64,000 nt of DNA, from NCBI RefSeq assembly GCF_032854445.1, contig NC_088297.1:25847915-25911914 (forward strand), read 5' to 3'. This DNA is from Liolophura sinensis (Eukaryota; Mollusca; Polyplacophora; Chitonida; Chitonidae). Positions within the stretch are counted from its first letter, which is position 1, and each line of letters opens with the position of its first letter. A model generated the notes under the pieces. It saw nothing but the letters and a program-made list of their open reading frames with translations, was not told the origin of the DNA and did not search any database. A program made the translations under genes and the position numbers. Positions 519 to 63,747 of the stretch are shown here, one piece after another.

Positions 519-3500
519 GTATATTACAGCTAGAATTCCTGTGTATATGTAAAGTGTTTTGAGTGATAAAGTAATACGTTTTACATCTACCATATATTTT
601 AATACATTCGTATAGTATTGATAGACCATGAACGGGTGTTCAAAAGTCAATAGTCACAAGATCAATTTTCAAAACAACTTAAAACACCATTTCCCAAAGG
701 AGTTTGTCCGAAATCCTGTATAAATAGCGGATAAAGCTGGTAGCATTTGAGGCAGAATTAATTTCTGAGTAATTTCCACGTCGAATACTAATATAGGTTT
801 CTGAGATTTTTTGTTACAACGCTCTTACCAAAAGTTGTTTTCCGCGTATATTTTTCATGGACGCATTTAGTGATGATTATTTAGGTGCCTTTCTTTGTAT
901 TCCCACAGCCTTAATAAATACCTGTTTGATAATCAATCTTCTGTATAGTGTCGATGGCTTACCTGTATAAAATCAGTGTGTTCTGTCGGAGACACACTTT
1001 GTTAAGTTTTGGTGTTGTTGTTGTAGATGGTTGTGCTTTTTCCTGGAAATGGTGGGCAACATGATCGTGCTGGCCGCCGGCATGTTTGCCGTCTCACAGA
1101 GAGGTGTCATTCAGGGAGGCCTGGTGGGGCTCTCAGTATCCTACGCTCTAGAGGTAAACAGGACGTCAGTGGTCTGTGGAATATAATGTCTTATGTATAG
1201 AGTGTCTACTGAAGGCAAAGCTTAGGAGATACGTGTGATGTGAAGAATGAGTTGTGGAGAAAATGTCTGGTGGAGGAAATATCTGGTGGAGGACATGTCC
1301 AGTAAGGAAATATCTTTTTGGGAACATGCCTAGTGGGGACAATGTATGGTAAGGAACTGTCTGTTTGGGAACTTGTCTAATGTGTAGAATGTCTGTTGTT
1401 TAAAATTTATGACGGGTACAAGGGGGAAAATGTATGACGGGAACGATGTCTTGATGGAGAAAATGTATGACGGGAACGATGTCTTGATGGAAAAAATGTA
1501 TGACGGGAACGATGTCTTGATGGGGAAAATGTATGACGGGAACGATGTCTTGATGGGGAAAATGTATGACGGGGACAATGTCTTAATGGCGAAAATGTAT
1601 GACGGGAACAATGTCTTAATGGCGAAAATGTATGACGAGGACAATGTCTTGATAGAGAAAATGTATGACGGGGACAATGTCTTGATGGAGAAAATGTATG
1701 ACGAGGACAGTGTCTTGATAGAGAAAATGTATGACGAGGACAATATCTTGATAGAGAAAATGTACGACCGGGACAATGTCTTGATGGAGAAAATGTATGA
1801 CGGGGACAAAGTCTTGATAGAGAAAATGTATGACGGGGACAATGTCTGTGTGGCGAAAATGTATGACGAGGACAATATCTTGATAGACAAAATGTATGAC
1901 GAGGACAATGTCTTGATAGACAAAATGTATGACGAGGGCAATGTCTTGATAGAGAAAATGTATGACGGGGACAATGTCTTGATGGAGAAAATGAATGACG
2001 AGGACAATGTCTTGATGGAGAAAATGTACGACGAGGACAATGTCTTGATAGACAAAATGTATGACGAGGACAATGTCTTGATAGACAAAATGTATGACGA
2101 GGGCAATGTCTTGATAGAGAAAATGTATGACGGGGACAATGTCTTGATGGCGAAAATGTATGACGGGGACAACGTCTTGATGAGGAAAATATATGGTGAC
2201 AGAAATGTCTGATGTGAGAACATGAATTGTGTCCGACATCGGAAAAAGTCAGAGCGTGAAATGAAAACTCCATACCTTGAAAGAAAATGAGCTCTGTTCT
2301 AATACTGTAAACAACAGTGCGTGTTTGAAAACATTGCTAACTTTTGGAAAGTTGGGATAATTGTACAGGGTTGTACGGTGATCTGCCTTTGTAGATCACA
2401 GAGGCGTTGACCTGGCTGGCACGACTGGCTTCTGCAGTGGAGACAAAGATTGTGTCTGTAGAAAGGATAAATGAATACACGGAAGCAATTACAGAGGTAT
2501 GACTGTTCATGTAAACACCAACTGAGATATGAACATGTTCATGTAAACGTCTACATAGGTATGACATGTTCATGTAAACATCTACAGAGGCCTGAGCATG
2601 TTCACGTTAACATCTGCAGAGGTATCAATGTGTTCACGTAAACACCTAAAGAGGCACGAATATGTTTATGCAAACATCTACAGAGGCATGAATATGTTCA
2701 CGTTAACATCTACAGGGGTACCAATGTGTTCACGTAAACACTTAAAGCGGTACGAATATGTTTATGTAAACATCTACAGGACATGAATATGTTCACGTTA
2801 ACATCTACAGGGGTATCAATGTGTTCACGTAAACATCTACAAAGGCATGAAAATGTTCATGTAAACACCTATAAAAATATGAACATGTTCATGTAAACAT
2901 CCCCAGAGGCATGAAGGTATTCATGTAAACATCTACAGAGGCTGAACGTGTTCATGTTAAACCTACAGAGGCATGAAGGTATTCACGTTAACATCTACAG
3001 AGACATGAACGTGTTTACCTAAACACCTACAGAGGTATGAAAGTGGTCGTGAAAACACCTATAAAGGTATGAACATCCACAGAGTCATGATTTGTTCATT
3101 TATTTATTTGGTGTTTTCCGCCGTACTCAAGAATATTTCACTTATGCGATGGTGGCCAGCATTATGGTGGGAGGAAACCGGGTAGAGCCTGGGGGAAACC
3201 CAGAAACATCCGCAGGTTGCTGGGACACAGAGGCATGAACGTGTTCATGTAAACACCTATAGAGATATGAGCGTGTTCACGTTAACATCTACAGAAGCAT
3301 GAACGTGTTCATGTAAACACCTAAGACATGAATGCTCAGATAAACACCAATAGAGGTGTGAATATGTTCACGTTAACACTTCCAGAGGCATGAGAGTATT
3401 CATGTAATCACCTACAGAAGTATGCACAACTTCAAGGTACTTACAGAGGTTTAACCATGTGCACGTAAGCACCTACAGAGGCTTGAATATGTAAACGTAA

Positions 3501-63747: not shown

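Follow-up and report, generated by a model that had tools for sequence, protein, structure and literature searches.

Two putative ABCC transporter genes and the arrays at their exon-intron junctions

The window, by which we mean the whole 64,000-nt stretch of DNA analysed (positions 25,847,915-25,911,914 of contig NC_088297.1, Liolophura sinensis), contains parts of two paralogous genes predicted to encode ABCC (MRP-type) transporters. Gene A (319..9944, + strand) is represented by e15-e22, with its 5' half upstream of the window and the end of e22 approximate; gene B (38838..63748, - strand) is represented by e3-e22, with e1-e2 past the window end and its low end approximate. Gene models were obtained by comparing the collinear exons of the two opposite-strand loci, with junctions placed on the basis of AG/GT sites common to both, of frame and of exon length. 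This yielded 22 exons, e1-e22, in each gene, with identical lengths in A and B for all 17 exons that had both ends placed in both; the acceptors of e11, e12 and (in gene A) e1 could not be placed and were left out of the counts. The gene A exons taken for a joined product have a stop-free frame in each case, e7 being included from the locus comparison, and this product scored 1466.5 bits against the MRP model TIGR00957, slightly below its cut-off of 1470, aligning to profile positions 354-1518 of 1522, with the N-terminal part not in the query. For gene B, a stretch of five joined exons had MRP1 as its closest match among solved structures. Exon e4 of gene B (61759-61917) has lost one base, which creates a TGA, and has gained one base further on, and copies 1 and 3 of its e7 array (57988-58946) are missing one G of a GGG run. 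Gene B may have decayed, or may carry sequencing (homopolymer) errors.

Other repeats are present around these genes. A 46-bp unit is repeated approximately 160 times between genes A and B (window 14796-22136), and a dispersed element of up to approximately 250 bp occurs at 3087-3223, 39829-39961, 49275-49462 and 51089-51346, with two further copies outside the window at -18058..-17805 and 66166-66419; the copies compared share 78-90% identity. The assembly as a whole (609 Mb in 632 contigs) contains eight tandem matches to the mollusc haemocyanin beta-sandwich model within approximately 11 kb of contig C8, found by a profile search of contigs. The mitochondrial cox1 frame contains TGA codons that are read through, and cox1 and cox2 are adjacent without a tRNA between them, followed by trnD and atp8 (by eye). 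We take the cox1/cox2 adjacency to be a mollusc and not an amphioxus arrangement. Contig C99, as assembled, holds the mitochondrial genome in the form of a tandem concatemer, with seven cox1 matches (one partial) spaced by approximately 15.5 kb.

A first-pass annotation had reported tandem arrays beginning at the exon-intron junction at seven places in genes A and B. All seven are present, and six of them (2496, 7388, 39359, 46991, 52594 and 63610) are exact donors. In gene A, the array at the e17 donor (after 2496) occupies 2490..4093 on the + strand, with approximately 50 copies of a 32-bp unit as called by TRF, and that at the e21 donor (after 7388) occupies 7333..9077 (+), with 22 copies of a 79-bp unit (TRF). 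The remaining arrays are in gene B, on the - strand, and were likewise delimited with TRF. The e21 donor (39359) lies in an array at 39186..39414 with three copies of the same 79-bp unit as in gene A, and the e17 donor (46991) in one at 46831..47005 with a 64-bp unit whose core is, by eye, common with that of the gene A array. The e13 donor (52594) is covered by 32 copies of a 21-bp unit (51923..52598) from whose consensus the GT has gone, and the e3 donor (63610) by 22 copies of a 68-bp unit (62138..63643); gene A has no array at either of these two junctions. The seventh place, 58803, belongs to the exon encoding Walker A and differs from the others. There the array (57988..58946) comprises six copies of a 160-bp unit in which exon 7 is contained whole, together with its acceptor region and its donor, and gene A has an array of the same unit in 2.6 copies outside the window (-14562..-14139). 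The proposal that each array is a copied exon end plus GT donor is therefore correct for six places, while the e7 array is a tandem exon duplication and not a junction-only array.

With overlap scored within 10 bp and exon 7 left out, TRF arrays overlapped 6/25 donors of genes A and B inside the window and 6/40 when flanking stretches were added, and overlapped none of the acceptors (0/25 inside the window, 0/37 with flanks). The exon-derived part of the units encodes conserved transporter residues, for example the segment at the end of e21. Since the exon ends within units encode conserved residues and exon lengths are equal in both paralogues, the arrays derive from the exons and not the reverse.

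The distribution of arrays between the paralogues bears on how often they arose. The e7 and e21 arrays are found in both genes with the same unit, and the e17 units have a common core by eye despite periods of 32 and 64 bp, so that these three arrays probably predate the A/B gene duplication; copy numbers differ between the paralogues in this one assembly. The e3 and e13 arrays are found in gene B only. Independent recurrence of seeding, proposed on first reading for all of the places, thus applies to e3 and e13 and probably not to e7, e21 and (by eye) e17, leaving about five events. Arrays were also found at the e13 and e2 donors of an ABCC-like gene on contig C9 and at the e15 donor and e17 acceptor of another on contig C1, both genes being called ABCC-like solely by tblastn with gene A. 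Because the array-bearing junctions differ between ABCC-like genes, seeding must have recurred at different junctions.

Junction-spanning arrays in other gene families

The genome-wide scan that had been suggested to follow up these arrays was run on a sample, drawn by Pfam exon matches and blind to the presence of arrays. Exons were hand-picked among the matches listed (106/109 for SNF-transporters, 73/81 for myosins and 48/138 for kinases), the matches dropped being mainly long ones and some poor ones; the 99 P450 matches were too sparse and none entered the sample. The first sample covered 160 of 178 planned regions and 204 exon matches to myosins, kinases and SNF-transporters. By eye, arrays spanned 7/204 donors (L068, L082, L067, L017, L109, L042, L162) and 5/204 acceptors (L041, L027, L078, L076, L085). 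A second sample of 54 exon matches, mostly from ABC genes, comprised 11 ABC-locus stretches and nine more of the planned SNF regions; its exons were 26 places from 32 tblastn matches (overlapping or gapped ones merged or dropped), together with Pfam and SNF matches. Here 4/54 donors (L166 e15, L169 e13, L170 e2, L171) and 1/54 acceptors (L166 e17) were spanned. Arrays judged by eye to be non-spanning were left out (L101, L036, L092, L006, L164, L056, L153, and the acceptor sides of L046, L092 and L104), as were the uncertain cases L104 (donor), L173 and L184. Pooled over both samples, outside genes A and B, arrays spanned 11/258 donors and 6/258 acceptors in myosins, kinases and transporters, where 258 exceeds the true number of junctions per side since some match ends are domain ends or overrun the exon. 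A donor-only phenomenon is ruled out by the acceptor arrays. In one SNF-transporter intron (L184:1-363), the array units resemble an acceptor plus the start of the next exon beyond that stretch.

The first-pass annotation had raised the idea that junctions are hot spots for local duplication. We compared the pooled counts with a uniform null, in which the expected number of spanning arrays is obtained by multiplying unit length by how densely arrays start in the adjacent intronic sequence, using hand-corrected distances. In the sample outside genes A and B, 11 spanning arrays were seen at donors where 3.7 were expected (P 0.001) and six at acceptors where 4.9 were expected (P 0.36). For both ends together, 17 were seen against 8.5 expected (P 0.007, rising to 0.019 once both counts are treated as noisy), which strains purely uniform seeding, mostly at donors. 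These figures make it plausible, without proving it, that donors carry a two- to three-fold excess. The hot-spot idea has the donor count on its side and the donor-acceptor contrasts against it, the difference between 11 and 6 not being significant (p 0.33).

Put in full, this idea holds that tandem duplications in this lineage truly begin more often than chance around the 5' splice site, perhaps through transcription or R-loops at intron starts. In addition to the donor excess, the near edges of arrays concentrate at donors, with 17 in the interval -75..+30 and nine in +30..+150 (P 0.043), against nine and 13 in the same windows at acceptors; the contrast between the two ends is, again, not significant (Fisher 0.15). 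Windows, thresholds and by-eye junction corrections were moreover set after inspecting the data, and when the first sample alone was counted earlier by a cruder method, 12 arrays stood against an expectation of 7.0-7.4 (P 0.05-0.075). Genes A and B point in the same direction (6/40 donors, 0/37 acceptors), and adding them to the sample gives 17 donors against six acceptors (p 0.035), a figure that includes the genes in which the arrays were discovered. Tandem triples of AGGTAAGT at 12-42 spacing are also more frequent genome-wide than those of the backward-read pattern (203+347 vs 230+159 matches, or 550 vs 389), and we give this little weight because the listed places cluster in long arrays and the frequency of the single word is uncontrolled. 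Selection acting through the branch point and pyrimidine tract may keep arrays away from acceptors, which would look like a donor bias. Taken together, we regard a true initiation hot spot as a tentative and rather unlikely explanation.

Decoy splice sites and their possible effect on splicing

Arrays of this kind multiply splice sites, and the first-pass annotation had spoken of a GT donor in every unit, of dozens of decoy donors per intron, and of a possible effect on splicing through alternative or reinforced donor choice. Among junction copies identified by a 22-base match, the GT or AG is mostly kept (for example 17/17 in L067, 21/21 in gene B e3, 21/22 in gene A e21), gene A e17 (22/39) and gene B e13 (1/11) being the two exceptions, so that the first of these statements does not apply throughout. 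Decoys were scored with a simple donor matrix, for which 40 authentic donor sites in genes A and B were used, a site being counted when it reached at least the 10th percentile of the authentic donors. The six donor arrays of genes A and B held 20, 22, 25, 15, 11 and 2 such sites; "dozens" is apt for three of them, and the rest have fewer. Decoy density was 11.4-22.3 per kb in these arrays. The remaining introns of both genes had 11.7 per kb, so that the density is ordinary or at most about twofold raised.

On another reading the repeated donors would be functional, either by reinforcing U1 recruitment or by providing alternative donors and hence protein variants. Many units do hold a GT donor, and the splice dinucleotide is more conserved than the mean of the other columns in 10/11 aligned arrays, by a mean of only 0.03, falling below it at gene A e17. 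Its rank among adjacent column pairs in the same 11 arrays is, however, unexceptional (share of pairs less conserved, 0.12-0.84), because many columns are invariant, and weak conservation of the dinucleotide is possible. The losses of GT in gene A e17 and gene B e13 also speak against function, as do the near-ordinary decoy density and the existence of two junctions where gene B has an array and gene A does not. Furthermore, a frame test took 16 of the 17 array-bearing donors (gene B e21 left out) and the decoys lying no more than 700 bp from them. None of these 151 decoys gave an in-frame, stop-free extension, compared with 1/116 in a control set of 23 introns from the same two genes that lack a spanning array; in this test the frame of L082 was set by hand and 700 bp overruns the short arrays. 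Since no decoy is both in-frame and open, any decoy use should give a frameshift or a premature stop. Judging by the coding frame and by the equality of exon lengths, the exon-proximal donor is probably the one used. With density near ordinary, dinucleotides neither clearly protected nor removed and no in-frame open decoy, the suggestion that repeated donors affect splicing finds no support, and we consider a functional role very improbable.

One feature hints at selection on the extra sites, in that few spanning arrays have a unit length divisible by 3. Among the independent ones, in genes A and B and in loci L017-L171, the count is 2/22, compared with 29/94 other arrays (Fisher p 0.058, binomial 0.017). 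Arrays common to both paralogues were counted once and e7 was included, most loci with a spanning array contributed no other arrays, and the scarcity was noticed post hoc. A bolder hypothesis would join this scarcity to the donor excess: the 5' splice site would be a birthplace of minisatellites, with starts several-fold commoner within tens of bases of the donor than elsewhere in introns, and the units that persist would avoid multiples of 3, since nonsense-mediated decay would clear decoy products that are out of frame or carry a stop, and in-frame ones would escape it. We consider this conjecture improbable.

A probable passive origin and its relation to amphioxus mirages

The units carry exon-end bases copied together with the splice site, they occur at donors and acceptors in unrelated gene families and at different junctions, and their splice dinucleotides are not clearly conserved. 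The reading that we favour, with a probability of roughly three in four, is that these arrays are mirages in the sense established for amphioxus, i.e., passive tandem duplications that happened to straddle junctions and were tolerated since the exon-proximal copy works, the extra sites being passengers. Such an array would begin when, in a minisatellite-rich mollusc genome, a tandem duplication covers a splice junction by chance, and would later expand by slippage or unequal exchange. The exon-adjacent copy would preserve the exon, so that the array adds only intronic sequence. Splicing would presumably use the exon-proximal site while repeated GT or AG sites ride along, and any mis-spliced transcripts would be cleared by nonsense-mediated decay. 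The array would be tolerated because its exon-proximal copy still splices.

A very different explanation would be that the arrays are artefacts of assembly. The small indels in the e4 and e7 copies of gene B could be sequencing errors, and the mitochondrial genome was assembled as a concatemer. Against this, the units making up an array are not identical (mean column identity 0.80-0.99), and paralogous arrays have a common unit and unlike copy numbers. In amphioxus, resequencing of PGBD5 is said to argue strongly against assembly error (PMC3902484). We therefore regard artefact as extremely improbable.

With the chiton arrays, mirages are no longer confined to a small number of lancelet genes and reach a second phylum. 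They also come with a sampled rate, which for the exons covered is approximately 4% at donors and 2% at acceptors. Whether splice junctions seed tandem duplication becomes testable, as does the question of how the splicing machinery handles many copies of a real junction within one intron. The arrays also offer natural cases that bear on the idea, put forward from the amphioxus globins, of intron gain fed by repeats.

The first-pass annotation knew of no described class like this one. Such a class has in fact been described, under the name of mirages, in amphioxus (PMC3087553; PMC3902484). Mirages are tandem repeats over exon/intron boundaries, found in Adh3 and in the globins BflGb6 and BflGb9, with units of 10-72 bp in Adh3 and 150-160 bp in the globins, and they affect both 5' and 3' boundaries (PMC3087553). 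The AG or GT is present in many units and not in all (PMC3087553; PMC3902484), RT-PCR suggests that splicing is undisturbed, and a model of intron gain fed by such repeats was proposed for the globins (PMC3087553). PGBD5 of amphioxus has similar repeats, and troponin C is cited as another case (PMC3902484). The chiton units resemble mirages in consisting of exon-end bases, a splice dinucleotide and intron bases, the dinucleotide having been lost from the consensus at gene B e13. As in amphioxus, both boundary types are affected (11/258 donors and 6/258 acceptors), with genes A and B alone showing donors only, plus e7. The reported hosts of mirages are cephalochordates, whereas the host here is a mollusc, as the haemocyanin units and the cox1-cox2 adjacency indicate, and on these two grounds an amphioxus origin, entertained on account of the mirages reported there, was rejected; host group is no structural criterion for membership. 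Unlike mirages as described so far, the chiton arrays extend over several gene families in a mollusc, have a sampled rate, and are known from the sequence of one assembly. We found no mollusc precedent for junction-spanning minisatellites among the open-licence papers listed.

Two further systems share features with these arrays. Human genes in segmental duplications contain internal tandem repeats with units of approximately 30 bp on average, half of them in coding sequence, and those at an exon-intron boundary can reportedly give rise to new introns (PMC2812944). In both cases minisatellite expansion meets splice sites, whereas the chiton arrays, unlike the human repeats, sit in existing introns. 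The gain of introns through tandem duplication of genomic sequence (PMC4974935; PMC3443670) likewise involves copying of sequence that bears splice signals. It differs from the situation in L. sinensis, where an existing junction is covered and many copies lie within one intron.
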